From the NCBI RefSeq assembly GCF_036634175.1, contig NZ_JAZIFX010000001.1, positions 5,022,001 to 5,086,000 of the forward strand: 64,000 bases of DNA, written 5' to 3'. Position 1 is the first letter of the stretch, and every line of letters begins with the position of its first letter. The position numbers and the translations under genes are program-made. Positions 46,117 through 63,716 of the stretch are shown here, piece after piece. The DNA is from Streptomyces sp. P9-A2 (lineage in GTDB: Bacteria; Actinomycetota; Actinomycetes; Streptomycetales; Streptomycetaceae). Under the pieces are notes generated by a model. It was given only the letters and a program-made list of their open reading frames with translations, had not been told where the DNA came from and ran no database searches.

Positions 46117-46484
46117 GCGGGCGGGGCCGGTCAGCCGCCTCATCGGCCCCCTCCGGCCCCCTCCGGCCACCTCTGTCCTCTCTGTCCTCTCTGTCGCCTT
46201 CGCCCCCGCCACCCCTCCGTCCCCGCTTCGTCGCTCCACTTGTGTCCCGGGTGGGGGAGGGGAGCGTGGTGCGCGTGACGCCCAGCCGCGCACTGTTCCG
46301 GCCACCCCTTCCGTCGCTTTCCACCCCTTCGATCCCCTATGGCCCTCTGTTTCACCAGGGTGTAACCGGCCATCGGCACGAATGGATAACGGCCCCGCTG
46401 TACCCCGTTCCCAGGAGTGTCTACGCGCGTTAATGTCGCCGAACCGAGCGCCGCCGCGGGGCTTTGGAGAATGGGGAGCGTCAG
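46117..46484. other. bmpA1 upstream region
   Basis: 368 bases without a gene. It begins with pyrimidine-rich short repeats (CTCTGTCCT units at about 46170-46195) and CCCCCTCCGG units at 46144-46168, and ends with the promoter region and conserved palindrome upstream of bmpA1. Confidence 0.6.
46420..46434. promoter_or_regulatory. Nucleoside-regulon palindrome, site A (TCTACGCGCGTTAAT)
   Basis: This 15-base sequence is identical to site B and contains the ACGCGCGT core shared with the perfect palindromes at sites C and D. It lies about 50 bases upstream of the bmpA1 start. Confidence 0.75.
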
Positions 46485-47540
46485 ATGCGTCGGATATCCA
46501 GACTGACTCGCGTCGCTGTGGGGGTCGCGTCGCTCGCACTCGCCGCCACGGCCTGCGGTGGTACCAGCAGCGAGGGCGGGGACAGCTCGGAGAGCTCCAC
46601 GAAGGGCGACCTCGGTCTCGCCATCGCCTACGACATCGGCGGCAAGGGCGACCAGTCCTTCAACGACGCCGCGTACGCGGGGCTCCAGAAGGCCGAGAAG
46701 GAGTTCGGCTACAAGACCGCCGACATCGAGCCCACCGAGGGCGAGACCGACGCGGACAAGGAACAGCGCCTCTCGTCGCTCGCCAAGCAGGGTTACAACC
46801 CCGTCATCGGCGTCGGTTTCGCCTACGGCCCGGCGATGACGGCCGTGGCCGAGAAGTACCCGGACACCACCTTCGGCATCGTCGACTCCGTGGTCGAGGG
46901 CGATAACGTCGCCTCCCTCGTCTTCGCCGAGGAGCAGGCGTCCTACCTCGCCGGCGTCGCCGCGGCCAAGGCCACCAAGACCGATGTGGTGGGCTTCATC
47001 GGCGGTGTGGACATCCCGCTGATCCACAAGTTCCGCGCGGGCTTCGAGCAGGGCGTCAAGGCGACCGACCCGAAGGTCAAGGTCGTCTCGCAGTTCCTGA
47101 CGCAGACCGCGGAGGAGGGCGGCTTCTCCAGCCCCGACAAGGGCAAGGCCGCCGCCGAGGGCCAGATCGAGAAGAAGGCCGACGTCGTCTACCAGGCGGC
47201 CGGCCTCTCCGGGCAGGGCGTGATCGAGGCCGCCGCCAAGGCGAAGGTCTGGGCGATCGGTGTCGACTCCGACCAGTACCAGCAGGAAGCCCTCGCCGGC
47301 TACAAGGACTTCATCCTCACCTCCGCCACCAAGGAGGTCGGCGGTTCGGTGTACGCCCTCGCCAAGTCCGTCAAGGATGACAAGCCGCTGACCGGCACTC
47401 AGGTCTTCGACCTGAAGGTGGACGGCGTCGGCCTCTCCGACAGCAACCCGAAGATGGGCGAGATCGAGGGCCTGACGGACGCCGTGGCCAAGGCCAAGGA
47501 AGGCATCATCGACGGCTCCATCACCGTCAAGACGGAGTAA
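46485..47540 (+). CDS. BmpA-family substrate-binding lipoprotein 1 (nucleoside uptake)
   Basis: A 351-residue lipoprotein. The signal peptide ends at lipobox ATAC with Cys24, followed by a Ser/Gly/Glu linker. The body is the BMP family purine-nucleoside binding fold (IAYDIGGKGDQSFNDAAYAGLQKAEKEFGYKT, VGFAYGPAMTAVAEKYPDTTFGIVD, GFIGGVDIPLIHKFRAGFEQG, AIGVDSDQYQQEA). It feeds the ABC transporter encoded at 50.0-54.0 kb. ATG 46485 follows GGGGAG. A hairpin terminator follows at 47610. It is a paralogue of the protein at 48757, with a shared 75-base identical block. Confidence 0.94.
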   Translation: MRRISRLTRVAVGVASLALAATACGGTSSEGGDSSESSTKGDLGLAIAYDIGGKGDQSFNDAAYAGLQKAEKEFGYKTADIEPTEGETDADKEQRLSSLAKQGYNPVIGVGFAYGPAMTAVAEKYPDTTFGIVDSVVEGDNVASLVFAEEQASYLAGVAAAKATKTDVVGFIGGVDIPLIHKFRAGFEQGVKATDPKVKVVSQFLTQTAEEGGFSSPDKGKAAAEGQIEKKADVVYQAAGLSGQGVIEAAAKAKVWAIGVDSDQYQQEALAGYKDFILTSATKEVGGSVYALAKSVKDDKPLTGTQVFDLKVDGVGLSDSNPKMGEIEGLTDAVAKAKEGIIDGSITVKTE

Positions 47541-47609
47541 GGCGGCAGGAGAGCGGCGCAGCTCGTACTACCGCACTACCGCACTACCGCAGCACCGCAG
47601 TGACGAAGC

Positions 47610-47645
47610 CGGGCGGGCACCCCAGTGGGTGTCCGCCCGCTTTTC
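47610..47645 (+). terminator. Rho-independent terminator after bmpA1
   Basis: A GC-rich stem (CGGGCGGGCACCC with GGGTGTCCGCCCG, one G-T mismatch) and a CAGT loop are followed by TTTT at 47641-47644. Confidence 0.85.
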
Positions 47646-47721
47646 GTGCCCTTCGGACGCCGTCTTGCCGAACCGGCAACAGGAGTGGCGTGTCCGGTAC
47701 ACGCTGGGCGACGGTGGGCCG

Positions 47722-48402
47722 ATGAACGACGACATCGTGGCAGGACCGCCCGCGTTCGACCCGCCCTTCCCCGCCGACGGATACGTCGGAGACCCCGCGG
47801 TGAGGGCGGAGTGGGACAACCGGTACACCGACCGACAGCAACTGTGGAGTGGCCGGCCCAACGGCGCGCTGGTGGCCGAGGCCGCCGGGCTCACACCCGG
47901 GCGGGTGCTCGACGTCGGCTGCGGCGAGGGCGCGGACGCCGTCTGGCTCGCGCGCCGCGGCTGGGACGTGACCGCACTCGAGGTCTCGGGCGTGGCACTG
48001 GAGCGGGCGGCCGGGCACGCGCGGGACGCCGGCCTCGCCGTTCGCTGGGTTCACGCCTCACTGACGGAGGCGGCCCTCCCGCCGGCCTCCTTCGACCTGG
48101 TCTCCGCGCAGTACCCCGCCCTGTTGCGGACCCCCGACGCCGCGGCCGAGCGAGCGCTGCTCGCGGCCGTCGCGCCCGGCGGCGTGCTGCTGCTCGTGCA
48201 CCACGCGGGGATGGACACCCGGCAGGAGCACGAGAGCGGCTTCGACCCGGCCGACTACGTCTGGCCCTCGATGGTCGCCGCTCTGCTCGACGAGGACTGG
48301 GAGGTGGAGGCGGACGAGCAGCGGCCCCGGGTGGCGCCCGACGGCGGCGCCGGCGCGCACCACACCGACGACCTGGTGCTGCGCGCACGCCGACTGTGCT
48401 GA
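47722..48402 (+). CDS. Class I SAM-dependent methyltransferase
   Basis: A 226-residue methyltransferase of the TehB/tellurite-resistance type. EWDNRYTDRQQLWSGRPNGALV is the characteristic N-terminal segment, VLDVGCGEGADAVWLARRGWDVTALEVS is motif I, and FDLVSAQYPALLR and ALLAAVAPGGVLLLVHH follow. ATG 47722 was chosen by domain start. It interrupts the two bmpA paralogues and has no obvious link with nucleosides. Confidence 0.87.
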   Translation: MNDDIVAGPPAFDPPFPADGYVGDPAVRAEWDNRYTDRQQLWSGRPNGALVAEAAGLTPGRVLDVGCGEGADAVWLARRGWDVTALEVSGVALERAAGHARDAGLAVRWVHASLTEAALPPASFDLVSAQYPALLRTPDAAAERALLAAVAPGGVLLLVHHAGMDTRQEHESGFDPADYVWPSMVAALLDEDWEVEADEQRPRVAPDGGAGAHHTDDLVLRARRLC

Positions 48403-48756
48403 GCTCTCTCCGCCGCCGGGTGCGCCGAGCCCTCCCGTCGGCAGCGGACCCGGCGGCCCGCTCCGGCACCGGGAGTACGCCGCGCCGGCCGGCGGGCCGA
48501 CCGGCGGGCAATGTGTCGGATGTCACGGTGCTTGTCACCTCACGCTGTACATCGCCCGCACATCGCCCGAATGTCACCCAGTGCCACGATCCGTTCGTGA
48601 TCGGCGATGGCGTACCCGCGGTAGGGGCCGAGTAGGCCACAGCCGCATAACAAGCTGGACAGAAGGGGTTTCCAGGGAGGTCTACGCGCGTTAATCTGCG
48701 GCGAAGCCAGCGCCGCCCCCCCGATCTTCCGGCGCTTGTACGAAGGAGCACCACAC
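48403..48756. other. bmpA2 upstream region
   Basis: 354 bases without a gene; short imperfect repeats of ATCGCCCG/CATCGCCC around 48549-48570, then the site B palindrome and the bmpA2 promoter region. Confidence 0.55.
48681..48695. promoter_or_regulatory. Nucleoside-regulon palindrome, site B (TCTACGCGCGTTAAT)
   Basis: Identical 15-mer to site A, 61 bases before the bmpA2 start. Confidence 0.75.
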
Positions 48757-49806
48757 ATGCGCCGGATTTCCCGGATCACGGTCGCAGGCGCAGCGACCGC
48801 CTCCCTGGCCCTCGCGCTCGCCGCCTGCGGTGGCACCTCGACCTCTTCCGGCTCGTCGGAGTCGAAGGACGACAAGGGCATCGCCATCGCGTACGACGTC
48901 GGCGGCAGGGGCGACCAGTCCTTCAACGACGCGGCGTACGCGGGCCTGCAGCAGGCGGAGAAGGAGTTCGGCTACAAGACCGCCGACGTCGAGCCCACCG
49001 ACGGTGAGACCGACGCGGACAAGGAGCAGCGCCTGGCCTCGCTGGCGAAGCAGGGCTACGACCCGGTCGTCGGTGTCGGCTACGCCTACGCCGCCGCCGT
49101 GAAGGGCGCCGCCGAGAAGTACCCGGACACCACCTTCGGCATCGTCGACGACTCCACGGTCGAGCTGGACAACGTGGCGGACCTGGTCTTCTCCGAGGAG
49201 CAGGCCTCCTACCTGGCCGGCGTCGCCGCCGCCGAGACCACCAAGACCGACGTGGTGGGCTTCATCGGCGGTGTGGACATCCCGCTGATCCACAAGTTCC
49301 GCGCGGGCTTCGAGCAGGGCGTCAAGGACACGAACCCGGACGTCAAGGTCGTCTCGCAGTTCCTGACGCAGACGGCGGAGGAGGGTGGCTTCTCCAGCCC
49401 GGACAAGGGCAAGGCCGCCGCCGAGGGCCAGGTCGAGAAGAAGGCCGACGTCATCTACACGGCGGCCGGTCTGTCCGGTCAGGGTGCCATCGAGGCCGCG
49501 GCCGCCAACAAGGTCTGGGCGATCGGTGTGGACTCCGACCAGTACGCGCAGGAAGCCCTGGCGAAGTACAAGGGCTCGATCCTCACCTCCGCGACGAAGG
49601 ACGTCGCCAAGTCGGTGTACAAGCTGGCGCAGTCGGTCGAGGACAAGGCTCCCCGCACCGGTATCCTCAGGGGCGATCTGGCGTCGGGTGAGGTCGGCCT
49701 CGCGCAGTCCAACCCCGTGTTCGCGGACAACGCGAAGCTTCAGGACGTCATCGAGACGGCCAAGAAGAAGATCATCAGCGGCGACATCAAGGTCCAGTCG
49801 AGCTGA
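48757..49806 (+). CDS. BmpA-family substrate-binding lipoprotein 2 (nucleoside uptake)
   Basis: A 349-residue paralogue of the 46485 protein. The signal peptide ends at lipobox LAAC with Cys24. The same BMP fold motifs are present (IAYDVGGRGDQSFNDAAYAGL, GFIGGVDIPLIHKFRAGFEQG, SSPDKGKAAAEGQVEKKADV, AIGVDSDQYAQEALAKYKG). ATG 48757 follows GAAGGAG. It is directly upstream of the transporter operon but separated from it by a very strong hairpin and a new palindromic operator, so expression levels can differ: the binding protein is normally needed in excess. Confidence 0.94.
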   Translation: MRRISRITVAGAATASLALALAACGGTSTSSGSSESKDDKGIAIAYDVGGRGDQSFNDAAYAGLQQAEKEFGYKTADVEPTDGETDADKEQRLASLAKQGYDPVVGVGYAYAAAVKGAAEKYPDTTFGIVDDSTVELDNVADLVFSEEQASYLAGVAAAETTKTDVVGFIGGVDIPLIHKFRAGFEQGVKDTNPDVKVVSQFLTQTAEEGGFSSPDKGKAAAEGQVEKKADVIYTAAGLSGQGAIEAAAANKVWAIGVDSDQYAQEALAKYKGSILTSATKDVAKSVYKLAQSVEDKAPRTGILRGDLASGEVGLAQSNPVFADNAKLQDVIETAKKKIISGDIKVQSS

Positions 49807-49838
49807 GTCCGGCAGGACCTGCACAGCGTGTAACCCTT

Positions 49839-49909
49839 GGGGTCGCGACCGCTCGACGGGGTGCGGGGAGTAGGCTCCCCGCACCCCGTCGAGCGGGGTG
49901 CGCGACCCC
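49839..49909. terminator. Exceptionally long composite hairpin after bmpA2
   Basis: A perfect 20-bp inner stem (49851-49870 with 49875-49894, 4-base loop) is flanked by a 9-bp outer stem (49839-49847 with 49901-49909). It lies between bmpA2 and the ABC operon. Confidence 0.88.
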
Positions 49910-49928
49910 GTTCGATGCCGTAGGGGCG

Positions 49929-49940
49929 CTACGCGCGTAG
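49929..49940. promoter_or_regulatory. Nucleoside-regulon palindrome, site C (CTACGCGCGTAG)
   Basis: A perfect 12-bp palindrome between the hairpin and the start of the ABC ATPase gene. Confidence 0.8.
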
Positions 49941-50014
49941 ACGACCCCCGTCCCCAGGAGTGCGCCATCAACGCGTCCAGCAGCCCTCCGGCCGGAGCGG
50001 CGGTCAACGAATCG

Positions 50015-51624
<1,610 letters not shown>

Positions 51625-51625
<1 letters not shown>

Positions 51626-52749
51626 TGAAGAAGTTCGACAAGGAGCGTGTGCTCCTCGCGGTGGCCGGACCGGTCATCGCGCTCGCCGTGGCCTTCGCGC
51701 TCAGCGCGATCGTGCTGCTCGCCTCGGGCAAGAACCCCGTCGAGCCGTTCGCCCTGATGTTCGAGCAGGCGACGTTCTCCGACATCCAGGTCCTGATCAT
51801 CAACCAGGCCTCGATGTACTACATCGCCGCCCTCGCCGTGGCCATCGGCTTCCGGATGAACCTCTTCAACATCGGGGTCGACGGCCAGTACCAGCTCGGT
51901 GCCTTCATGGCCGCCGTCGTCGGCACCCACATGAACCTGCCGGCCGTGCTGCAGATCCCGCTGCTGCTCCTCACCGCCGTGTTCACCGGCGCCTTCTGGT
52001 CCGGTATCGCCGGTGTCCTCAAGGTCACCCGCGGGGTCAGCGAGGTCGTCGCCACGATCATGCTCAACGCGATCGCCACGTCCCTCATCGTCTACATGTG
52101 GAAGCCGGACGTCTTCGGCGTCAAGATCGGCAACAACAGCACCACCGGCGAGATGCACGAGTCCGGCTGGGTCCCCGGCATCGACATGGGCGAGGCCGGC
52201 GAGATCTACGGTCTGGTCGTCCTCGCCGCGCTGCTCGGCATCGGCTACTGGGTCGTCCTCAACCGCACCCGCTTCGGCTTCGACCTGCGCGCCTCCGGCG
52301 CCTCCACGACCGCCGCCGCGGCCAGCGGCGTCGACCCCAAGCGCATGGTGCTCACCGCCATGCTGATCTCCGGCGGTCTCGCCGGTCTCGCGGGCCTACC
52401 GATCCTGCTCGGCGACTCCCACACCTACAACCTGAACTTCCCCACCGGTATCGGCTTCCTCGGCATCGGCATCGCCCTGCTCGGCCGCAACAGCCCCGTC
52501 GGCATCGCCTTCGCCGCCCTGCTGTGGGCCTGGCTCGACAAGGCCTCACCCGAGCTGGACTTCCACGGCTACGACAAGGAGATCGCGGTCATCATGCAGG
52601 GCCTGATCGTCCTCTCGGTCGTCGTCTCCTACGAGGCCGTCCGCGAGTGGGGCCTGCGCCGTCAGCAGCGCCGGGTCGGCGCGGAACTCGCCGCCGGTCA
52701 CGTCCTCGGTGCCGACAACAACACCACGAAGGAGGTGGCTGGCCGATGA
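51625..52749 (+). CDS. Nucleoside ABC transporter permease 1
   Basis: A 374-residue integral membrane protein of the BPD_transp_2 family with 8-10 helices. NQASMYYIAALAVAIGFRMNLFNIGVDGQYQLGAFMAAVVG is the characteristic cytoplasmic-loop/helix segment, followed by GVLKVTRGVSEVVATIMLNAIA. It is the NupB-like partner. ATG 51625 overlaps the ATPase stop by one base (TGATG), and its stop overlaps the next ATG (ATGA). Confidence 0.93.
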
Positions 52750-54020
52750 CCGCCCCGACCACAGCGACCGACGTCAACCAGCCCTCGCTGCAGCCTGCGG
52801 CGCCCACCGGCCGCCGCATGTCGTGGCCCGTGCTGCTGCTGGTCATCGCCGGCGCCCTGGCCCTGGTCTCGATCGTCCGCATCATCACCGGCGCGGACGG
52901 CATCACCAACGTCAGCCAGATGTCCACCGCCCTCCAGCTCGCCGTCCCCATCGGCCTCGCCGGACTCGGCGGCCTGTGGGCCGAGCGCGCGGGCGTCGTC
53001 AACATCGGCCTCGAGGGCATGCTGATCCTCGGCACCTGGTTCGGCGCCTGGGCCGGATTCCAGTGGGGCCCGTGGACCGGCGTCCTGGTCGGCATCATCG
53101 GCGGCTGCCTCGGCGGTCTGCTGCACGCCGTCGTCACCGTCACCTTCCGCGTCAACCACATCGTCTCCGGTGTGGCCATCAACATCCTCGCCCTCGGCGT
53201 CACCCGCTACCTCGCCCCGCTCGCCTTCGAAGGCCACCAGGGCGGCTCCGCCAAGCAGTCCCCGGCGATCGAACCGCTCGGCCACTTCACCGTGCCGGGG
53301 CTGTCCGACGCGCTGCGGGACCTCAACGCCAAGGGCTGGTTCTTCGTCTCCGACATCGCGGGCCTGCTCGGCGGCCTGGTCACCAACGTCTCCTGGCTGA
53401 CCCTCATAGCCGTCGCGCTCATCCCCGCCACCTGGTGGATCCTCTGGCGCACCGCCTTCGGCCTGCGCCTGCGCTCCTGCGGTGAGAACCCCGTCGCCGC
53501 GGAGTCCCTCGGCGTCAACGTCTACAAGTACAAGTACCTCGCCGTGATCATCTCCGGCGGTCTGGCCGGCCTCGGCGGCGCCTTCCTCTCCATCGTCGCC
53601 AACCCCTTCTACCTGGAGGGCCAGGTCAGCGGGCGCGGCTACATCGGCCTCGCCGCGATGATCTTCGGCAACTGGATGCCGGGCGGCCTCGCCATCGGCG
53701 CCGGACTCTTCGGCTACACCGACAGCCTCAACCTGCGCGGCGGCTCCACCAACGTGCACGCCCTGCTGCTGCTCGGCGCGCTGCTCCTGCTCGCCGGCGC
53801 GATCTGGCTGGCGATCCGCAAGAAGTACGTGCACGCGGTCGTCACCCTGGTCATCGGCGCGCTCGTCTTCGCCTGGTACGCCGGCACCAACGAGGTCCCC
53901 AACCAGGTCGTCGCCGCCACCCCGTACGTCATCACCCTTGTCGTCCTGGCCCTGTCCGCGCAGCGGCTGCGCATGCCGAAGGCGGACGGACTCCCGTACC
54001 GGAAGGGACAGGGCGGATGA
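52746..54020 (+). CDS. Nucleoside ABC transporter permease 2
   Basis: A 424-residue permease of the same family (NupC-like). LQLAVPIGLAGLGGLWAERAGVVNIGLEGMLILGTWFGAWAGF is the signature segment. LHAVVTVTFRVNHIVSGVAINILALGVTRYL and GENPVAAESLGVNVYKYKYLAVIISGGLAGLGGAFLSI follow. It heterodimerises with permease 1. The cdd start overlaps its stop (ATGA), tying uptake to deamination. Confidence 0.93.
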   Translation: MTAPTTATDVNQPSLQPAAPTGRRMSWPVLLLVIAGALALVSIVRIITGADGITNVSQMSTALQLAVPIGLAGLGGLWAERAGVVNIGLEGMLILGTWFGAWAGFQWGPWTGVLVGIIGGCLGGLLHAVVTVTFRVNHIVSGVAINILALGVTRYLAPLAFEGHQGGSAKQSPAIEPLGHFTVPGLSDALRDLNAKGWFFVSDIAGLLGGLVTNVSWLTLIAVALIPATWWILWRTAFGLRLRSCGENPVAAESLGVNVYKYKYLAVIISGGLAGLGGAFLSIVANPFYLEGQVSGRGYIGLAAMIFGNWMPGGLAIGAGLFGYTDSLNLRGGSTNVHALLLLGALLLLAGAIWLAIRKKYVHAVVTLVIGALVFAWYAGTNEVPNQVVAATPYVITLVVLALSAQRLRMPKADGLPYRKGQGG

Positions 54021-54430
54021 CGCCCGCCCCGGCCGCCGCGGCGGACACCGACTGGGAGGCGCTGCGCGCGGTGGCACGGGAGGCCATGTCCCACGCGTAC
54101 GCCCCCTACTCGGGCTACCCGGTCGGTGTCGCCGCCCGGGTCGACGACGGGCGCACGGTCTCCGGCTGCAACGTCGAGAACGCCAGCTACGGCCTCGGCC
54201 TGTGCGCCGAGTGCGGACTGGTCTCGGAGCTGCAGCGCACCGGAGGCGGCCGGCTCACGCACTTCACCTGCGTGGACGGCACGGGCGCGATCCTCGTCCC
54301 GTGCGGCCGCTGCCGCCAGCTGCTGTACGAGTTCGGCGGCCCCGGACTGCTCCTCGAAACCCCGTCGGGCGTCCTGCCGCTGTCGGCGATGCTGCCCCAG
54401 GCCTTCGGCCCGGAGCACCTCGCCAAGTAA
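54017..54430 (+). CDS. cdd: Cytidine deaminase
   Basis: A 137-residue homotetrameric-type enzyme converting cytidine and deoxycytidine to uridine. Zinc ligands: Cys63 in CAE (with catalytic Glu65) and Cys96/Cys99 in VPCGRC. AYAPYSGYPVGVAA and GCNVENASYG are family signatures. It is translationally coupled to permease 2, so imported cytidine can be processed at once. The product uridine/deoxyuridine is a substrate for phosphorolysis by the next gene product. Confidence 0.96.
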   Translation: MTPAPAAAADTDWEALRAVAREAMSHAYAPYSGYPVGVAARVDDGRTVSGCNVENASYGLGLCAECGLVSELQRTGGGRLTHFTCVDGTGAILVPCGRCRQLLYEFGGPGLLLETPSGVLPLSAMLPQAFGPEHLAK

Positions 54431-54436
54431 CCCCGT

Positions 54437-54503
54437 AGGGCCGGGGCCCCGCATCCCGTAGGGCCCCGCACCCCGCAACCCGTAGAACCTCGCACCCCGT
54501 AGC
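54437..54503. repeat. Imperfect CCCGTAG-based repeats between cdd and deoA
   Basis: Several imperfect units built on CCCGTAG and CCCCGCA follow one another in the 165-base gap. No stable hairpin dominates; spacing is irregular. Confidence 0.55.
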
Positions 54504-54595
54504 TCCACCGCGGCCCCTCCGCACGGCTCACTCCCGACCGGAGAGGCCGCGTCCCGAGGGGCCGCGCCCTTCGCACTCCGGAAGGAATGCCACCC

Positions 54596-55879
54596 ATGGC
54601 CATGGACGTCATCTCCGTCATCCGCACCAAGCGGGACCGCGGCGAACTCAGCGACGAGCAGATCGACTGGGTCATCGACGCGTACACCCGCGGGGAGGTC
54701 GCCGACGAGCAGATGTCGGCCCTCGCGATGGCGATCCTCCTCAACGGCATGAACCGGAGCGAGATCGCCCGCTGGACCGCCGCGATGATCGCCTCCGGCG
54801 AGCGCATGGACTTCTCCTCGCTGTCGCGCCCCACCTCCGACAAGCACTCCACGGGCGGCGTCGGCGACAAGATCACCCTGCCGCTCGCCCCGCTGGTCGC
54901 GGCCTGCGGCGCGGCCGTCCCGCAGCTGTCCGGCAGAGGCCTGGGTCACACCGGCGGCACCCTCGACAAGCTGGAGTCGATACCCGGCTGGCGCGCGCTG
55001 CTCTCCAACGAGGAGATGCTGTCCGTCCTCGACGGCGTCGGCGCCGTCATCTGCGCGGCCGGCGACGGCCTCGCCCCCGCCGACAAGAAGCTCTACGCCC
55101 TGCGCGACGTGACCGGCACCGTCGAGGCGATCCCGCTGATCGCCTCCTCGATCATGTCGAAGAAGATCGCCGAGGGCACCGGCTCACTCGTCCTGGACGT
55201 GAAGGCCGGCAGCGGCGCCTTCATGAAGACGATCGAGGACGCCCGCGAACTGGCGTCCACCATGGTCGGCCTCGGCACCGACCACGGCGTGCGGACCGTC
55301 GCCCTGCTCACCGACATGTCGACGCCGCTCGGCCTCACCGCCGGCAACGCGCTCGAGGTCCGCGAGTCGGTGGAGGTCCTGGCGGGCGGCGGCCCCGCCG
55401 ACGTCGTCGAGCTCACCCTCGCCCTGGCCCGCGAGATGCTGGACGCCGCCGGACTGAAGGACGCCGACCCGGCGAAGGCCCTGGCCGACGGCTCCGCGAT
55501 GGACGTCTGGCGCCGCATGATCGCGGCCCAGGGCGGCGACCCGGACGCCCCCCTGCCCACGGCGCGGGAACAGCACGTGGTGACGGCGACCGCCTCCGGC
55601 GTCCTGACCCGCCTGGACGCCTACGACATCGGCGTCGCCGCCTGGCGCCTCGGCGCGGGCCGCGCCCGCAAGGAGGACCCGGTACAGGCGGGCGCGGGCG
55701 TCGAACTGCACGCCAAGCCCGGTGACACCGTCACCGAGGGCCAGCCCCTCCTGACCCTGCACACGGACACCCCGGACCGCTTCGCCTACGCCCTCGACGC
55801 GGTGTCCGGCTCCCACGACATCGCGGCCCCCGGCACGCCCTTCACGGCGGCGCCGGTGGTGCGGGAACGCATCGCCTGA
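54596..55879 (+). CDS. deoA: Thymidine (pyrimidine) phosphorylase
   Basis: A 427-residue enzyme splitting pyrimidine deoxynucleosides with phosphate. DVISVIRTKRDRGELSDEQIDWVIDAYTRGEV is the family start. DKHSTGGVGDKITLPLAPLVAACG contributes phosphate binding, and SGRGLGHTGGTLDKLESIPG is the signature. The C-terminal PYNP domain ends HAKPGDTVTEGQPLLTLHTDTP. ATG 54596 was preferred because GGAAGGA at 54580-54586 is 9 bases upstream; ATG 54587 abuts it. It completes the uptake-cdd-deoA salvage operon. Confidence 0.95.
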   Translation: MAMDVISVIRTKRDRGELSDEQIDWVIDAYTRGEVADEQMSALAMAILLNGMNRSEIARWTAAMIASGERMDFSSLSRPTSDKHSTGGVGDKITLPLAPLVAACGAAVPQLSGRGLGHTGGTLDKLESIPGWRALLSNEEMLSVLDGVGAVICAAGDGLAPADKKLYALRDVTGTVEAIPLIASSIMSKKIAEGTGSLVLDVKAGSGAFMKTIEDARELASTMVGLGTDHGVRTVALLTDMSTPLGLTAGNALEVRESVEVLAGGGPADVVELTLALAREMLDAAGLKDADPAKALADGSAMDVWRRMIAAQGGDPDAPLPTAREQHVVTATASGVLTRLDAYDIGVAAWRLGAGRARKEDPVQAGAGVELHAKPGDTVTEGQPLLTLHTDTPDRFAYALDAVSGSHDIAAPGTPFTAAPVVRERIA

Positions 55880-55983
55880 CCCACGCACGCGGGACATGCC
55901 TCATTCGGATGAACGGGGTCGGTGGACCACCACCGGCCCCGTTCGGCGTGCTGGGATCGGTGGTGCACAGACGGGGGAGCACC

Positions 55984-56567
55984 ATGACCGTAGTCGCAGT
56001 GAGCGAGCACCCCGACCAGAGGTGGGACGACCTCGTCCGCTTCTGGGAGGAGATGGAATGGCCCGAGGGCAGCAAGGTGGAGATCATCGAGGGGATCATC
56101 ACCGTGTCACCCGCTCCCGGGCTTCACCACAATGTGATCGCGGAACGCATGCAGCGCCCCTTGTACTCCGTGATTCCGCAGAACTGGGCGATCTTCCAGA
56201 CCCAGGCCATCACCGTGCCCTCACGTTCGGGGATGCTCATTCCGGATCTTCTGGTGTACCCGGACCGGGAGCACCAGGAGTCGGACACCCGTCTGCCCGC
56301 CGCCCTCGCCGAACTGGTCGTCGAGGTGACCTCGGCGTACAACGCCCGGCATGACCGCATTTCCAAGCCCGTCGCCTACGCCGCCGCGGGCATCCCGCTC
56401 TACCTTCTCGTCGACCGCTGGAACCCCGAAGGCCCGACCGCGACACTCTTCGGCGAACCGAACGGCGATGTCTACCGTCCCTGAGCACCGTCAAGTTCGG
56501 CGATCCGATCGAACTGCCGAAGCCCTTCGACCTTGTCATTGACACCGCTGAGTTCCCCCACCCCTGA
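55984..56567 (+). pseudogene. Uma2-family gene with a C-terminal one-base frameshift
   Basis: ATG 55984 opens MTVVAVSEHPDQRWDDLVRFWEEMEWPEG and a full Uma2 core (KVEIIEGIITVSPAPGLHHN, LIPDLLVYPDREHQ, LVVEVTSAYNARHDRISKPVAYAAAGIPLYLLVDRW). It stops early at 56482-56484 after GDVYRP. The next frame continues at once as LSTVKFGDPIELPKPFDLVIDTAEFPHP with a stop at 56565-56567, a normal Uma2 ending. One missing C in the CCC at about 56478-56481 explains it. The truncated 166-residue product retains the core and could still fold. Confidence 0.82.
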
Positions 56568-56568
56568 G

Positions 56569-57489
56569 TCACCCCAGCACCGTCGCCACCACCACGAGCA
56601 CCGGTACCGACAGCAGGGTCGACACCAGGATCGCCTCGCGCGCCAGGGTCTCGCCGACGCGGTAGCTGCTCGCGTACGTGAAGAGGTTCTGCGCGGCCGG
56701 CAGGGCCGAGGTCACCACCACGTCGAGCAGCTGTGCGCCGCGCAGCCCGAACACCCCCACCGCCAGCGCCCAGGCGACCACCGGCTGGCCCACCGACTTC
56801 AGCGCCACGGCCAGCAGGACCGTCCCGCGCTCACCGCCCCGCAGGGGCAGCGAGCTGCCGCGCAGCGAGATGCCGAAGGCGAGGAGGACGGCAGGAACCG
56901 CCATGTTGCCGATCAGGGTCACCGGGTCCATGACCGGGCCGGGGACGTCGACGCCACTCGCCGCCACCGCCACCCCCGCCAGTGAGCCCAGCGCGATCGG
57001 GTTCCGCAGTGGTGTGAGCAGCCGTCGCCACAGGGGCTGCTTCTCCCCGGCGGTCGCCAGGTCCAGGATCGTCAGCGCGACCGGGGTGACCATCACGAGC
57101 TGGAAGAGCAGCACCGGCGCCACCAGCGAGGCGTCGCCGAGGACGTACACGGCGATCGGGATGCCGAGGTTGCCGGAGTTGACGTAACTGGAGCACAGGG
57201 CACCGATGGTGGTACGGCCCACGCCCCAGCGGCGTACGGCACCCACCGTCACGAAGACGCCGGCCACCGCAAGCGTGCTCAGCGCCGTGACCAGAAGCCG
57301 GCCGGAGAAGACCAGGGACAGGTCGGCCTCGGCGAGGACGGTGAACAGCAGGGCCGGCGAGGCCACGTGGAACGCCAGCTTCGTCAGCACGTCGCGGGCC
57401 TGCCCGCCGAGATACCCCCGGCGGCCGATCACATAGCCGGCGCCGATGACGACCGCGATCACCGCGAACCCGCTCAGTACCCCCTGCAC
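56569..57489 (-). CDS. Auxin-efflux-carrier (AEC) family transporter
   Basis: A 306-residue membrane protein with about ten helices. GFAVIAVVIGAGYVIGRRGYLGGQARDVLTKLAFHVASPALLFTVL is the N-terminal half of the AEC/PIN-like fold, SSYVNSGNLGIPIAVYVLG contains the conserved Asn-x-Gly region, and NPIALGSLAGV is the inter-half NP motif. GTG 57487-57489 has GAGGAG upstream. Bacterial members export or import malate-like organic acids; the substrate is unknown. Confidence 0.88.
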   Translation of the reverse strand: MQGVLSGFAVIAVVIGAGYVIGRRGYLGGQARDVLTKLAFHVASPALLFTVLAEADLSLVFSGRLLVTALSTLAVAGVFVTVGAVRRWGVGRTTIGALCSSYVNSGNLGIPIAVYVLGDASLVAPVLLFQLVMVTPVALTILDLATAGEKQPLWRRLLTPLRNPIALGSLAGVAVAASGVDVPGPVMDPVTLIGNMAVPAVLLAFGISLRGSSLPLRGGERGTVLLAVALKSVGQPVVAWALAVGVFGLRGAQLLDVVVTSALPAAQNLFTYASSYRVGETLAREAILVSTLLSVPVLVVVATVLG

Positions 57490-57660
57490 GACGGCTCCTC
57501 GCCGGGGTGGCGAGCACCGGGGGGCGCGGACGGAGGTGATCTGTGGTGCATGCAGCCAACCCTCGGGGGAGGGCCGTGCCCGGGTCAATGTGATCTCTGT
57601 GTCGTCCCTGCGGAAGCGGGCTCCGCCGCCCGTCCCCGAGCAGGCGTCCACGCCCCCGCG

Positions 57661-58050
57661 ATGAGTTGCGCGACCGCGCCCGGTCTACCGGTCGTGGATA
57701 CCACGACACCCCCCGTACTCGTCCTGCTCGGCCCCGTCACCCCGGACGGGGTGAGCGGGCCGGGCGACGCGCTGCGGGCACTCCTCGACGGCGGCGGAAC
57801 CGGCGGGGTGGTCGTCTGCGACGTGGGCGGGCTGGGGCCGCCGGGGCTCGCCACCGTGAACCTGCTGGCGCGTCTTCAGCTCCTGGCCCGCCGGACCGGG
57901 GGCCGGATACGGCTGCGCGACCCCGACCCCGCCCTATGCTCCCTGCTCGACCTCGTCGGTCTCGGCTTCGAGGTGGAGGGGCAGCCCGCACAGCGGGAAC
58001 CAGCGCCGGGTGTCGAGGAAGCAGTGGAACCCGGTGATCCGGCCGTCTGA
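57661..58050 (+). CDS. STAS-domain protein
   Basis: A 129-residue protein. A STAS-like fold is visible: PVLVLLGPVTPDGVSGPGDALRALLDGGGTGGVVVCDVGGLGPPGLATVNLLARLQLLARRTGGRIRLRDPDPALCSLLDLVGLGFEV. Proteins of this size act as anti-anti-sigma-like or signalling modules in Streptomyces; the usual phosphorylatable Ser/Thr near the DVGGLG loop is replaced here (no Ser), so phospho-control is doubtful. Its last 117 bases lie antisense to the 3' end of the sigma gene. Confidence 0.78.
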   Translation: MSCATAPGLPVVDTTTPPVLVLLGPVTPDGVSGPGDALRALLDGGGTGGVVVCDVGGLGPPGLATVNLLARLQLLARRTGGRIRLRDPDPALCSLLDLVGLGFEVEGQPAQREPAPGVEEAVEPGDPAV

Positions 58051-58950
58051 GATCTCCAGCACCTGGACCGCCCACGGGGTGAAACCGCCACCCTCCGGGG
58101 CCGGCTTGTAGTGGGCGAAGCCGGGCAGGCCGTTGACCTGGACCGGCAGCAGGCGCGAACCCGCACAGGAGGCGCCCAGCGTCGTCATGAAGCCCGTGAT
58201 GTCTCCGGGGCCGGTCAGCCACAGGTCGAACGGCGGCATCGTCATGATGGCGTCCTCGTGCAGCAACGCCGTCAGCGCCGACATGTCGTACCCCTCGAAC
58301 GCCTCCACATAGCGCTCCAGAAGCTTCTGCTGCTCCTCGTCCAGCGGGTCCGAGACGGACGCCTCGGCGCCCGGCTGCCGCCGCTCCGCGAGCGTCGCCC
58401 GCGCCCGCTGCAACGCGCTGTTGACGGACGCGACCGAGGTGCCGAGCAGCTCGGCCACCTCGCTCGCCTTCCAGGCCAGCACCTCGCGCAGCAGCAGCAC
58501 CGCCCGCTGCTTGGGCGGCAGCTGCTGGAGCGCGGCCATGAAGGCGAGCCGCACGGACTCCTTGGCGACCGCCGCCTCCGCGGGATCGGCGGTCTCGGGC
58601 AGTATCCGGGAATCCGGCATCGGCTCCAGCCAGGTGTGGTCCGGCCGGGGCGAGAGGGCCGCGCGGGCCAGCGGGGTCGACTCCGTCAGATCCATCGGGC
58701 GGGCCCGCTTGTTGCCGGCCGTCAGCATGTCCAGGCAGACGTTGGTCGCGATGCGGTACAGCCAGGAGCGCAGACTGGAACGGCCCTCGAACCTGTCGAA
58801 GCCGCGCCAGGCACGGACCATCGTGTCCTGCACCGCGTCCTCCGCCTCGAAGGAGGAGCCGAGCATGCGGTAGCAGTACCCGGTCAGCTCGACGCGGTGC
58901 GCCTCGAGCCTGGCGTCGAGACCGGTCGTCGTCGCCGTGCCGTTCGTCAT
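57934..58950 (-). CDS. ECF sigma factor with C-terminal SnoaL-like domain (SigG/SigX5 type)
   Basis: A 338-residue sigma factor. Region 2: LTGYCYRMLGSSFEAEDAVQDTMVRAWRGFDRFEGRSSLRSWLYRIATNVCLDML. Region 4: LAFMAALQQLPPKQRAVLLLREVLAWKASEVAELLGTSVASVNSALQRARATL. Residues about 215-338 form a SnoaL/NTF2-like domain (LLERYVEAFEGYDMSALTALLHEDAIMTMPPF...FHCFLDTRRWFPLCGLPLHL), which in such sigma factors replaces an anti-sigma protein as intramolecular control. ATG 58948-58950 follows GGGTGG. No anti-sigma gene is adjacent. Confidence 0.92.
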   Translation of the reverse strand: MTNGTATTTGLDARLEAHRVELTGYCYRMLGSSFEAEDAVQDTMVRAWRGFDRFEGRSSLRSWLYRIATNVCLDMLTAGNKRARPMDLTESTPLARAALSPRPDHTWLEPMPDSRILPETADPAEAAVAKESVRLAFMAALQQLPPKQRAVLLLREVLAWKASEVAELLGTSVASVNSALQRARATLAERRQPGAEASVSDPLDEEQQKLLERYVEAFEGYDMSALTALLHEDAIMTMPPFDLWLTGPGDITGFMTTLGASCAGSRLLPVQVNGLPGFAHYKPAPEGGGFTPWAVQVLEISDGRITGFHCFLDTRRWFPLCGLPLHLEAETDEVEQGA

Positions 58951-59153
58951 CGTCCACCCACCCCTGTGGCTTGTCTGCGGCGCGCCTTCGCACCCAGCAC
59001 TTCGGAAGCTACCGCAGCCCACTGACAGCGGCCCCCCGAGTCGACGAACGTGCAGGTCGGGGAAGCGGGTTCAGCGGGTGGAACAAAGGCTTCCGCCCGC
59101 TTCCCGGCCGTCGGCCCCGCCGGGCCGCATCAGGCCGGCCTCGTCGGGCCGCC

Positions 59154-60518
59154 TCACGCCGGGGCGAGCCCGCGCCGCTCCACCCGCTCCACCCGGGCCG
59201 CCCGGGTGCCCAGCACCGTGATGGTCACGACGCCGGCCACCGCCACCAGACCGACCCCCACCGTCCCGGACCAGCCGCCCGAGTGGAAGGCGAGCGCACC
59301 GACCGTGCTGCCCACGCTGGAGCCGACGTAATAGGCGGACTGGTACAGCGCCGACGCCTGGGCGCGGCCCCGGGTGGCCGTCCGTCCGACCGCCGAGGAC
59401 GCGACCGCGTGGCCCGTGAAGAAGCCGCCGGTGATCAGCACCAGGCCCAGCAGGATCAGGGGCAGGGAGCCGGCCAGGGACAGCAGCAGGCCCGCCGCGG
59501 TGGTGCCGCCCGCCGCGTACAGCGCGCCCCGGCGGCCGAGCCGGCCCACCAGCCGGCCCGACGCCGAAGCCGCCACCGTGCCGACCAGGTACACCAGGAA
59601 GATCGAGCCGACGACGCCCTGGGGGAGTGAGAAGGGCGCCTCGGCCAGCCGGTAGCCGATCATGGTGTAGACCCCGCCGAACACCGTCATGAACAGGGCG
59701 CCGATGGCGTACAGGCGCCGCAGCAGCGGGTTCGCGAGATGGTCGCGGACCGTGCCGAGCAGCACCCGCGGCCGCAGCGAGCCCGGACGGAAGTGCTTCG
59801 GCGCCGGCAGCAGCAGCCGGAACGCGACCGCACACGCCACCGCGAGCACCCCGATCACGCCGACGGCGACCCGCCAGCCCCACTCCTGCGCCACCCAGCC
59901 GGTGATGACCCGGCCGCTCATCCCGCCGACGCTGTTGCCCGCGACGAACAGTCCGATCGCGGTCACCAGGGCCCTGGGCCGGACCTCCTCCGCCAGATAC
60001 GCGGTCGCCGACGCGGGCACCCCGGCCAGGGCCGCCCCCTGGAGCGCCCGCAGCGCCACCAGGGCGCCGAGCGACGGGGCGAAGGGGACCAGCAGCCCGA
60101 CGGTCACCGCGACGGCCAGGGAGGCCGTCATGACCGTACGGCGTCCGTACCGCTCCGACAGCGCGCTCATCGGCAGCACGAACACCGCCAGACCGCCGGT
60201 GGCCGCCGCCACCGTCCAGCTCGCGTCGCCCGCGCTCACCCCGAGGTCGCCGGAGATCAGCGGCAGCAGGGCCTGCGTGGAATACAGCAGCGCGAAGGTC
60301 GCCACACCCGCCAGGAAGAGGGCGAGGCTCGTCCGGCGGAAACGGGGGTCGCCCGGGGACATACGGGAGTCGGCGCCGCCCGGCGCGCTCGGGATGTCCG
60401 GGGCGTCCGGGGCGCCGGGCGTGCTCGGGGGAGGGGAGGAGGGGGAGGGGGAGATCGGGGACGTGACGGAGGTGCGGGCGTCCACGGTGGTGGACGCCCT
60501 GGTACTGGCGGGAGACAT
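59154..60518 (-). CDS. MFS transporter (drug/metabolite exporter type)
   Basis: A 454-residue major facilitator. A 65-residue Ser/Pro/Ala-rich N terminus precedes 12 helices. LSERYGRRTVMTASLAVAV is the loop 2-3 motif A, and RLVGRLGRRGALYAAGG the equivalent in the second half. ATG 60516-60518 was chosen; the gene is divergent from the LysR gene, which probably controls it. Substrate unknown; pattern is near the YnfM/arabinose-efflux type. Confidence 0.88.
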   Translation of the reverse strand: MSPASTRASTTVDARTSVTSPISPSPSSPPPSTPGAPDAPDIPSAPGGADSRMSPGDPRFRRTSLALFLAGVATFALLYSTQALLPLISGDLGVSAGDASWTVAAATGGLAVFVLPMSALSERYGRRTVMTASLAVAVTVGLLVPFAPSLGALVALRALQGAALAGVPASATAYLAEEVRPRALVTAIGLFVAGNSVGGMSGRVITGWVAQEWGWRVAVGVIGVLAVACAVAFRLLLPAPKHFRPGSLRPRVLLGTVRDHLANPLLRRLYAIGALFMTVFGGVYTMIGYRLAEAPFSLPQGVVGSIFLVYLVGTVAASASGRLVGRLGRRGALYAAGGTTAAGLLLSLAGSLPLILLGLVLITGGFFTGHAVASSAVGRTATRGRAQASALYQSAYYVGSSVGSTVGALAFHSGGWSGTVGVGLVAVAGVVTITVLGTRAARVERVERRGLAPA

Positions 60519-60551
60519 GTGCTCGACGTTACGGACGGCTCCGCTCATCCG

Positions 60552-60564
60552 TCCAATGCATGGA
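60552..60564. promoter_or_regulatory. LysR-box-like palindrome (TCCA-N5-TGGA)
   Basis: A T-N11-A inverted repeat midway between the divergent MFS and LysR starts, as expected for the LysR binding site. Confidence 0.6.
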
Positions 60565-60582
60565 ATCGTCATAATCGTTCCC

Positions 60583-61536
60583 ATGCAGCATCAGCAGAGG
60601 TCGCAGGGCCGGCTGTCACCGTCCAGTGACACAGAAGACATCGTCGCGCTGCTCGCACCGCGTCTCGTCCACTTCGCCGGCGTCGCCCGTACGGAGCATG
60701 TCACCCGGGCCGCCCAGGAGCTGCAGGTCCCGCAGTCCACGCTCTCCCGGTCCGTCGTCCGCCTCGAACAGGACCTGGGCGTCGACCTGTTCGCCCGCCA
60801 CGGCCGTACGCTCTCCCTCACCCCCGCCGGCCGCGCCTTCCTCGTCTCCGTCGAACGGGCCCTCGCCGAGATCGGGCGAGCCGCCGACGAGGTGCGCGCC
60901 GACGCCGACCCGGCCACCGGCAAGGTCGCCTTCGGGTTCCTGCACACCATGGGCGCCGAGACCGTGCCCGGCCTGCTGCACACCTTCCGCGCCGACCACC
61001 CGCGCATCCGCTTCAGCCTCGTCCAGAACCACGGTGACGCCATGCTGGAGGGCCTTCGCACGGGCGAGCTCGACCTGTGCCTGACCTCCCCGGTCCCGGA
61101 CGCCCCCGACCTCGTCGCCCGACGCCTCGACGAGCAGAAACTGCGCCTGGTCGTCCCCGCCGACCACCGGCTCGCCGGCCGCCGCCGGATCCGCCTCGCC
61201 GAGGCCGCCGACGAGACCTTCGTGACCCTGGAACCCGGTTACGGTCTGCGCCGCATCACCGACGCCCTCTGCGACCGGGCCGGGTTCCGACCCCGGGTCG
61301 CCTTCGAGGGCGAGGAGGCGGAGACCCTGCGGGGCCTGGTCGCGGCCGGACTCGGCGTCGCCCTGCTGCCCCCGCCGGCCGTGCCCCGCCCCGAAGTGGT
61401 CGAACTGACTGTCACCTCCCCGCGAGCGGCCCGCGAGATCGGTGTCGCCTGGCTGGCCGGGCAGCCGGACACCCCGCCGGTGACGGCCTTCAAGCAGTTC
61501 CTGCTGTCACGCCGCGGCCGCCTGCTCCCGGACTGA
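60583..61536 (+). CDS. LysR-family transcriptional regulator
   Basis: A 317-residue regulator. The winged helix at about 25-85 is LVHFAGVARTEHVTRAAQELQVPQSTLSRSVVRLEQDLGVDLFARHGRTLSLTPAG. The effector domain follows (GKVAFGFLHTMGAETVPGLL...LRTGELDLCLTSPVPDAPDLVARRL...GLVAAGLGVALLPPPAV). ATG 60583 was chosen by HTH position. It is divergent from the MFS gene with a shared 64-base control region carrying one palindrome. Confidence 0.92.
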   Translation: MQHQQRSQGRLSPSSDTEDIVALLAPRLVHFAGVARTEHVTRAAQELQVPQSTLSRSVVRLEQDLGVDLFARHGRTLSLTPAGRAFLVSVERALAEIGRAADEVRADADPATGKVAFGFLHTMGAETVPGLLHTFRADHPRIRFSLVQNHGDAMLEGLRTGELDLCLTSPVPDAPDLVARRLDEQKLRLVVPADHRLAGRRRIRLAEAADETFVTLEPGYGLRRITDALCDRAGFRPRVAFEGEEAETLRGLVAAGLGVALLPPPAVPRPEVVELTVTSPRAAREIGVAWLAGQPDTPPVTAFKQFLLSRRGRLLPD

Positions 61537-61564
61537 CCACCACCCCGGGGCGGCACGACTGCCC

Positions 61565-61652
61565 ACCGCCGTGCCGCCGTGCTGCCGTAACACCGTGCTG
61601 CTGTGCTGCCGTACTGCCGTAACGCCGTACTGCCGTGCTGCCGGTAGCCGGT
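61565..61652. repeat. Degenerate GCCGT-CTGCCGT repeats between lysR and the hydrolase gene
   Basis: Short repeats of CCGTGCTGCCGT / CCGTACTGCCGTAACG follow one another over about 90 bases between convergent genes. Confidence 0.75.
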
Positions 61653-61683
61653 CGTGGTTCGGCGGCCGTCGTACGCCGGTCGC

Positions 61684-62445
61684 CTATCGCCGTGACGACG
61701 AACCGAACCCCGAGGCCAGCGGCATCCGCAGCCCCAGCGGCGGAGGCGCCGCCAGGGCGTCCCGCAGCGGACGCGAGAGTGCCCGCCCGAAGAGCGACCC
61801 CATCACGAAGTCCTCGCACAGGGCGAGGACTTCGTCCCGGTACTGGCGCAACCCGTGCCCATCGGCGTGCACTTCGAAGCGGCAGACGTCCCGGTTCGCC
61901 TTCTTCGCCCGCGCCGCCAGCCGGAAGGACAGCTCGGGGTCGGTCCGCGTGTCGTGTGTGCCGTGCACGATCAGCACTTGCCGTCCGGTCAGCTGCTTCA
62001 CCGGTTCGGGTGGCGCGGGCGCGTCCTCCCCGGGCAGCCAGGGGGCCAGCGCCAGCACGGAGGCGACGGCCTCGTGACCGCCCGCGCGAAGGGCCGCTCT
62101 GCCGCCCATGCCCAGGCCGGCCAGGCACACGGGAACGTCCCCGTAGCGCCGCACGGTCTCGTCGACGGCCCAGGCGGCGTCCCGCGCGAGATGCGCCTCG
62201 CCGCCGTTCCAGCCCCGGTAGCGGTAGTGGACGACATGGACGGCGAGTCCCTCGGTCCGGCCCGCGCGGCCGAGACGGCGTCCCAGTGCGCGTACGGAGG
62301 CGGTCGCCACCAAGGGGGACGGCCTGCGGCCGGAGACCGGATCGCCGCCGGGCAGCAGCACCACCACGCCGCCCACCGCCCCCGGATCCGGGCCGAGCGC
62401 CCTCCCCAGCCGTGCCCCGTGAACCGGCGTCGCTTGCTGTGCCAT
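61684..62445 (-). CDS. Alpha/beta-hydrolase-fold protein lacking the nucleophile serine
   Basis: A 253-residue protein resembling dienelactone-hydrolase-type hydrolases. VVVLLPGGDP is the oxyanion strand, and the nucleophile elbow reads CLAGLGMGGRAAL, with Gly where Ser or Cys is expected. The acid (VLIVHGTHDTRTDPE) and His (EVHADGHGLRQY) are present. GGC instead of AGC differs by one base. It may be a non-catalytic relative, or the nucleophile lies elsewhere. ATG 62443-62445; the ribosome site is weak. Confidence 0.8.
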   Translation of the reverse strand: MAQQATPVHGARLGRALGPDPGAVGGVVVLLPGGDPVSGRRPSPLVATASVRALGRRLGRAGRTEGLAVHVVHYRYRGWNGGEAHLARDAAWAVDETVRRYGDVPVCLAGLGMGGRAALRAGGHEAVASVLALAPWLPGEDAPAPPEPVKQLTGRQVLIVHGTHDTRTDPELSFRLAARAKKANRDVCRFEVHADGHGLRQYRDEVLALCEDFVMGSLFGRALSRPLRDALAAPPPLGLRMPLASGFGSSSRR

Positions 62446-62530
62446 GGCAGAACAGTGTCAGAAGCAACGGTGTACGCCACCCTGCCGTGCGGTCACCGTT
62501 GGATATCGGCGTATGTGTGCGCCGGGTGAT

Positions 62531-62542
62531 CTACGCGCGTAG
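62531..62542. promoter_or_regulatory. Nucleoside-regulon palindrome, site D (CTACGCGCGTAG)
   Basis: Perfect copy of the site C palindrome, 16 bases before the add ATG and overlapping its TAGGAG ribosome site, so binding could block transcription or translation. Confidence 0.8.
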
Positions 62543-62558
62543 GAGTTAGAGTGCGCAG

Positions 62559-63716
62559 ATGACGAGCCAGAGCACTGCGAACACCCCGACCGCGGACCAG
62601 ATCCGCCGGGCACCCAAGGTTCTGCTGCACGACCATCTCGACGGCGGCCTGCGCCCCGGCACCGTCGTCGACCTGGCCCGCGAGGCCGGATACACCCAAC
62701 TCCCCGAGACCGACCCGGACAAGCTCGGTCTCTGGTTCCGGGAGGCCGCCGACTCCGGTTCCCTGGAACGCTATCTGGAGACGTTCTCGCACACCGTCGG
62801 CGTCATGCAGACCCGGGACGCCCTGGTGCGGGTCGCCGCCGAGTGTGCCGAGGACCTGGCCGCGGACGGTGTCGTCTACGCCGAGGTGCGCTACGCGCCC
62901 GAGCAGCACCTCGAGGGCGGGCTGACCCTCGAGGAGGTCGTCGAGGCGGTCGACGAGGGCTTCCGCCAAGGGGAGCAGCGGGCCCGGGAGGACGGCCACC
63001 GCATCCGCGTCGGCGCGCTGCTCACCGCCATGCGGCACGCGGCCCGCGCGCTGGAGATCGCCGAACTCGCCAACCGCTACCGGGACCTGGGTGTCGTCGG
63101 CTTCGACATCGCGGGCGCCGAGGCCGGTTACCCTCCCACCCGGCACCTCGACGCCTTCGAGTACCTCAAGCGCGAGAACAACCACTTCACGATCCACGCC
63201 GGTGAGGCCTTCGGGCTGCCGTCCATCTGGCAGGCCCTCCAGTGGTGCGGCGCCGACCGGCTCGGGCACGGGGTGCGCATCATCGACGACATCCAGGTGC
63301 GCGACGACGGCACCGTCGAGCTCGGCCGGCTCGCCTCCTACGTCCGGGACAAGCGCATCCCGCTGGAGCTGTGCCCCAGCTCCAACCTCCAGACCGGGGC
63401 GGCGGCCTCGTACGCCGAGCACCCCATCGGCCTACTGCGCCGGCTGCACTTCCGGGCCACGGTGAACACCGACAACCGGCTCATGTCGCACACGAGCATG
63501 AGCCGGGAATTCGAGCACCTGGTCGAGGCGTTCGGCTACACGCTCGACGACATGCAGTGGTTCTCCGTCAATGCGATGAAATCGGCGTTCATTCCTTTCG
63601 ATGAAAGACTCGCCATGATCAATGACGTCGTCAAGCCCGGTTATGCCGAGCTGAAATCCGAATGGCTGTTCCGGCAGGCCGCTTCCACCAGCGGTTCTGT
63701 CGCCTCGGAGGAATGA
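62559..63716 (+). CDS. add: Adenosine deaminase
   Basis: A 385-residue zinc enzyme converting adenosine and deoxyadenosine to inosine. [12 protein letters not shown] gives zinc His24 and His26, [10 protein letters not shown] the third His and catalytic Glu, LGHGVRI the catalytic His, and VNTDNR the Asp. Length is normal. The palindrome at 62531 upstream matches those of the bmp/ABC genes, linking it to imported purine nucleosides. A 10-bp hairpin follows the gene. Confidence 0.97.

Follow-up and report, generated by a model that had tools for sequence, protein, structure and literature searches.

The palindrome CTACGCGCGTAG precedes genes for nucleoside import and salvage in a 64,000-nucleotide stretch of the Streptomyces sp. 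P9-A2 genome (hereafter the window; C1:5022001-5086000 in a genome of 8,385,695 bases, 8.39 Mb), and it probably acts as operator for a regulon of nucleic-acid scavenging that extends across the genus, with the LacI-family protein SCO4158 as the most likely repressor. That the regulon is real, strongly conserved and equipped with a new operator is practically certain. In the proposed mechanism, a dimeric repressor would bind at or next to the -10 region of its target genes and would be released when a nucleoside-derived signal rises. Its predicted targets comprise uptake genes (bmpA1, bmpA2 and an ATP-binding cassette (ABC) importer operon), genes of nucleoside catabolism (cdd, deoA, add, pnp, pmm and deoC), and genes for a purine permease, a secreted 5'-nucleotidase and secreted nucleases, while SCO4158 would keep a half-operator on its own promoter.

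Perfect copies of CTACGCGCGTAG are found exactly four times in the genome, at positions 5071929, 5084531, 5096683 and 5100508, and all four precede nucleoside operons. Two lie in the window, before the ABC importer-cdd-deoA operon and before add. The other two lie just outside it, one before deoC (L016:12684) and one before the operon in which a purine nucleoside phosphorylase gene (pnp) is followed by a phosphomutase gene (pmm; operator at L016:16509). The preliminary description of the window had located perfect palindromes before the importer operon and add, and two TCTACGCGCGTTAAT variants before bmpA1 and bmpA2. All four sites are in place (Table 1), and they end 52 (bmpA1), 63 (bmpA2), 26 (ATPase gene, assuming the ATC at 49967 as its start) and 16 (add) bases before the genes. 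Its statement that there were no other copies holds for the window but not for the genome, which has two more perfect copies 10.7 and 14.5 kb past the right end. The four-site, adenosine-only regulon that it had outlined was too narrow, as deoC, pnp-pmm, the secreted 5'-nucleotidase and the purine permease are also members; the original observation is correct, and the system is larger than first described.

Rather than occurring at random positions, the exact 12-mer is confined to these four places, all within 28.6 kb. Across 61 Streptomyces genomes, each with 2 to 6 copies, perfect copies total 230, whereas the reversed control pattern totals 38; at the control rate, a single 28.6 kb stretch would hold four copies with a Poisson chance of ~8e-13 (the stretch being defined post hoc). 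Degenerate matches behave differently. A scan allowing two mismatches, which had been proposed as a check, does not discriminate when run on the window (5 matches against 4.21 expected from shuffles, with 44 of 100 shuffles reaching 5). With at most one mismatch, 16 places match in the genome, while the reversed control has more, 46. Of the genome's 12 one-mismatch places, 11 were examined; most fall inside coding regions or near genes of unrelated function, but two pointed to the genes for the 5'-nucleotidase and the purine permease. Since loose matches show no excess, the case rests on the exact copies, their positions and their conservation.

The motif is present in all 184 Streptomycetaceae genomes surveyed and in 3 of 13 genomes from other families of the order; in a separate survey, 9 of 262 genomes outside the Streptomycetaceae carry it, with 11 copies. 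Conservation before orthologues, proposed earlier as a test, was found, with the exact motif kept before orthologous genes in other Streptomyces. In 47 of 53 loci of the family, one per genome, the 3 kb examined contain homologs of bmpA, the ATPase gene, add, pnp, pmm or deoC. Two of the remaining six (L041, L062) adjoin a gene for a HAD-type phosphatase, and four of the 53 (L039, L044, L061, L070) are without an explained target. The importer operon site of other genomes is perfect in 13 of 14 loci and has one mismatch in the other, 11 of these 14 loci having been preselected for a perfect site before the ATPase gene. In 17 genomes of other families of the class the importer cluster genes are kept, and no site with up to two mismatches occurs before the importer, add and deoA genes scanned. 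A separate arrangement is seen in second add paralogs of other Streptomyces (L029, L053 and L067, which are among the 47 loci, and L105, L106, L108, L109), where a perfect palindrome lies inside the first codons (M-T-A-T-R-V) and is partly spelled with codons rare in Streptomyces.

The spacing between operator and -10 box is 0 bases in bmpA, 1 in deoC (TATGCT), 4 in add and 12 in pnp (TACTCT). At add, GAGT and TAGAGT come directly after the operator and the ATG follows 6 bases later, a layout that resembles a leaderless promoter. In bmpA, the right half of the palindrome is replaced, and CTACGCGCGT directly abuts TANNNT in 21 of 21 sites from 14 other genomes, 18 of the 21 being forward-strand sites, counted separately. 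This survey covered 18 stretches, four of which hold no bmpA (L255-L258) and 11 of which were preselected for a perfect site before the ATPase gene. Both bmpA sites of the window share the CTACGCGCGT-TANNNT fusion, and judged from their sequence the two "variants" are genuine operators that run into a -10 box. Because variable spacing together with overlap of the -10 box fits a repressor better than an activator, we infer that the operator-binding protein is a repressor.

The closeness of the motif to -10 boxes would also suit an element of the core promoter that a special sigma factor reads, with no operator involved; however, its palindromic form, the spacing of 0-12 bases and the ordinary TANNNT boxes that follow render this reading extremely unlikely. 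A place on -10 boxes is also unusual for LysR activators, which bears on the LysR-family protein encoded upstream of add (open reading frame 59689-61536, with the real start probably at ~60600). A LysR-like gene precedes add in a sister genus as well (L102 4002-5033), but in the window an unrelated hydrolase gene lies between the LysR gene and add, and the LysR gene stands back to back with a major facilitator superfamily gene, its likelier target. This protein is very unlikely to be the regulator.

Two further genes of the own genome join the regulon through conserved one-mismatch sites. CTACGCGCGTTGAC is found before the secreted 5'-nucleotidase gene in 27 of 30 loci (gene in 40 of 41 genomes), and TCTACGCGCGGAGA or a similar site before the NCS2 purine permease gene in 30 of 30 loci (gene in 41 of 41 genomes), compared with best scores of 2 to 5 mismatches in control stretches. 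Following a scan of five genomes with the 10-mer TCTACGCGCG, 106 sites were read in 98 loci, some of which overlap and some of which are already known operators; a gene start falls within -150 to +300 bases of 53 sites, and the other 53 lack one. Looser sites of this kind lie before genes for a secreted nuclease resembling ExeM/NucH (own genome plus three; match below cut-off) and a small secreted GmrSD_C/HNH-type protein (own genome and two others), before NCS2 permease genes in four of the loci, and before genes for an NCS1 permease, an acid phosphatase and an Exo_endo_phos protein. Two tandem copies of TCTACGCGCGT, 13-14 bases apart, precede a 2',3'-cyclic-nucleotide phosphodiesterase/5'-nucleotidase gene in two genera (L319/L324, L371), the phosphodiesterase assignment being below cut-off in two genomes. 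Motif-like sites before purS/purQ/purL, and before purF in one genome (L521:13902 in the own genome, L381 in G009, L334 in G218), raise the prospect that purine synthesis genes may belong to the regulon; the purS/PurQ/PurL site of the own genome has one mismatch. Genes outside this theme also appear, including a POT transporter (two genomes), a peptidoglycan peptidase and proteins that match no Pfam family, and single looser sites are therefore leads only.

One looser site, at locus L406, lies 9 bases before a LacI-family gene and led to the candidate repressor, whose ortholog in the own genome is encoded at C1:3809212-3810231. The gene lies after an OmpR-type regulator gene, which we take to be glnR, and before an HtrA-type protease gene. 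The title of a cited study reportedly names pigment-antibiotic effects of SCO4158. It is this neighbourhood, with the glnR-like gene upstream and the HtrA-type protease gene downstream, that identifies the candidate as SCO4158. Passages of one study place SCO4158 downstream of glnR in S. coelicolor and report it as more abundant in phosphate limitation, with its role given as unknown and a possible link to glnR offered; the same passages describe no regulon or operator for it (PMC9739823).

Several features favor SCO4158 as the repressor. The protein carries LacI and Peripla_BP domains over cut-off (PF00356, PF13377, PF00532). At an E value of 1e-60, all 19 Streptomycetaceae genomes searched carry it and none of 10 genomes from the order's sister families does, a distribution that matches that of the motif; of 14 other genomes, 2 carry it. 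Its promoter contains xCGCGTAGACT (the reverse of AGTCTACGCG) in 99 of 99 loci (98 by script, plus L513), and this putative half-operator overlies a -10 box, TAGACT, that lies close upstream of the GTG start codon. Among the LacI loci of the own genome (30 of 34 matches), a site with up to two mismatches was found only in L164, where it lies in coding sequence, and in L185, the SCO4158 ortholog. The helix TSTAVVSYV is carried by this ortholog alone among 19 own LacI proteins with a readable helix. A central CG, as in the operator, is typical of LacI-family sites, and the LacI-family regulator guessed in the preliminary description is consistent with SCO4158, itself a predicted candidate.

Other observations weigh against the proposed explanation. 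SCO4158 was picked post hoc among the 53 sites near a gene start (of 106), its promoter matches only the half TCTACGCG, and TAGACT could be conserved merely as a -10 box. The half-site 8-mer occurs eight times in the 64 kb window, of which four are the operators, and the 10-mer TCTACGCGCG shows no genome-wide excess in five genomes (123 places against 132 for the control). The DeoR-family protein considered below has the same phyletic pattern, as would many family-specific genes. Against NCBIfam models, SCO4158 matches RbsR, PurR, CytR and GalS far below cut-off (bits/cut-off: PurR 177/501, RbsR 183/382, CytR 167/436, UriR 117/550). Because the candidate was found post hoc and its half-site shares letters with the -10 box, we regard SCO4158 as the repressor of this operator with odds only slightly better than even.

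The main alternative is that the repressor is a DeoR-family protein (SCO4920-like; C1:5103045-5104007) acting on the deo and nup genes as E. coli DeoR does, which controls the same pathway. Its gene is present in 101 of 101 Streptomyces genomes (100% identity in the own genome and 86 to 98% in the 100 others, an unusual degree of conservation), the protein is 85% identical in a sister genus and has no ortholog in sister families (best 32 to 45% identity), and a manual comparison of coordinates in 22 genomes placed the gene 2.2 to 2.8 kb (own ~2.5) from the pnp-proximal motif in every one. However, CTACGCG/CGCGTAG occurs in 0 of 30 deoR upstream regions of 300 bases each, and the deoR promoter is strongly conserved but with other sequence elements, although E. 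coli-type DeoR need not be autoregulated. In addition, two orthologs of family f16 (68% identity, near-identical recognition helix) adjoin a sugar-type ABC ATPase gene in genomes without any copy of the motif (G289, G309), and NCBIfam places the protein nearest to AgaR/GlpR types, below cut-off, with E. coli DeoR much lower. On this evidence, we consider the DeoR-family protein an unlikely repressor.

A similarly low probability is given to another transcription factor that is encoded elsewhere and not autoregulated. No regulator gene is apparent beside the importer operons in 17 crudely annotated stretches of other families, and the regulator survey of the own genome covered LacI loci, both of which leave room for such a factor; against it, the LacI candidate combines the right family, the matching distribution, a conserved half-site and the helix TSTAVVSYV.

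Both E. coli and Bacillus have well-known nucleoside regulons. The proposed SCO4158 regulon resembles that of E. coli CytR/DeoR (deo operon, nupG, udp, cdd), where uptake and catabolism are likewise placed as a unit under repressor control, but it uses other operators, and the Streptomyces set adds secreted nucleases and a secreted 5'-nucleotidase. CytR is a LacI-family protein (PMC3454398); unlike a true CytR, SCO4158 is far below the CytR cut-off. AdeR, HpxR and UriR, which passages of a comparative genomics study infer to be LacI-family local regulators of nucleoside utilization (PMC4052901), share the family and the nucleoside role of the candidate, although the UriR model was matched far below its cut-off. 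NupR of Bacillus thuringiensis is reported to be a GntR/HutC protein that regulates nucleoside permeases (PMC9430930), and it thus belongs to a different protein family from the LacI candidate. The motif and regulon were not found in the Streptomyces literature searched, an absence that is weak because most subscription journals lay outside the coverage. The exact 12-mer turned up in two papers, neither of which concerns Streptomyces regulation by title and abstract, and its core in one, about a phage telomere; SCO488x/4901/4914/4917 gave no literature match.

A broader role can be put forward tentatively, and we hold it to be less probable than not: SCO4158 orthologs may act as a master switch for the digestion of extracellular DNA and RNA in Streptomycetaceae, for example from dying mycelium. 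Secreted nucleases, a cyclic-nucleotide phosphodiesterase and 5'-nucleotidase would then be coupled to nucleoside import and to the breakdown of deoxyribose and purines, with purine synthesis genes joining in some species. With the regulon as proposed, one switch would link DNA recycling from dying hyphae, the supply of phosphate and nitrogen, and the adenosine and purine levels that feed nucleoside antibiotics. The analysis yields a precise operator and a set of targets in which secreted nucleases stand together with nucleoside catabolism, and it gives a testable function to an orphan regulator beside glnR.

Among the 262 genomes outside the family, only G310 has more than one copy of the motif, with three. 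It encodes a LacI relative (45% identity) with the same DNA-binding helix segment, and 14.6 kb away a perfect copy of the motif stands at the head of a gene cluster (C1:2080581-2104114 of that genome; L100, L522). The cluster contains QueD-like, kinase-like, QueE-like, IMP-dehydrogenase-like and GTP-cyclohydrolase genes, of which only FolE is over cut-off. On the other side of the LacI relative, at 16 kb, there is a second copy near a transposase-like gene, without an evident target. These observations are suggestive, post hoc, of the recruitment of motif and LacI relative to a natural product cluster of nucleoside (7-deazapurine-type) character.

Table 1. Operators, promoter elements and genes of the proposed regulon in the window (window coordinates)
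Feature	Position	Strand	Basis
bmpA1 operator, TCTACGCGCGT fused to predicted -10 box TAATGT (46431-46436)	46420..46436	+	Sequence; arrangement recurs in other genomes
bmpA1, PnrA-like nucleoside-binding lipoprotein	46485..47540	+	Pfam Bmp PF02608
bmpA2 operator, TCTACGCGCGT fused to predicted -10 box TAATCT (48692-48697)	48681..48697	+	Sequence; arrangement recurs in other genomes
bmpA2, second PnrA-like binding protein	48757..49806	+	Pfam Bmp PF02608
Perfect operator CTACGCGCGTAG, before importer operon	49929..49940	.	Sequence
Nucleoside ABC transporter ATPase	49967..51625	+	Pfam ABC_tran; start probably ATC at 49967
ABC permease 1 of importer operon	51625..52749	+	Pfam BPD_transp_2
cdd, cytidine deaminase	54017..54430	+	NCBIfam NF004064, over cut-off
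deoA, thymidine phosphorylase	54587..55879	+	NCBIfam NF004490, over cut-off
Perfect operator CTACGCGCGTAG, before add	62531..62542	.	Sequence; add promoters of other genomes
TAGAGT, presumed -10 box of a leaderless promoter for add, 4 bases past operator	62547..62552	+	Sequence; TANNNT kept in other add promoters
add, adenosine deaminase	62559..63716	+	NCBIfam NF006847, over cut-off

The ABC ATPase gene of the importer operon probably starts with ATC. An AGGAG Shine-Dalgarno sequence precedes the in-frame ATC at 49967-49969, where there is no ATG or GTG, and the ATC start is conserved in five other loci (L020, L024, L043, L045, L068). The gap between bmpA2 and the operator of the ATPase gene is filled by a long GC-rich inverted repeat (~49838-49908), which is perhaps a terminator between the bmpA2 and importer units.

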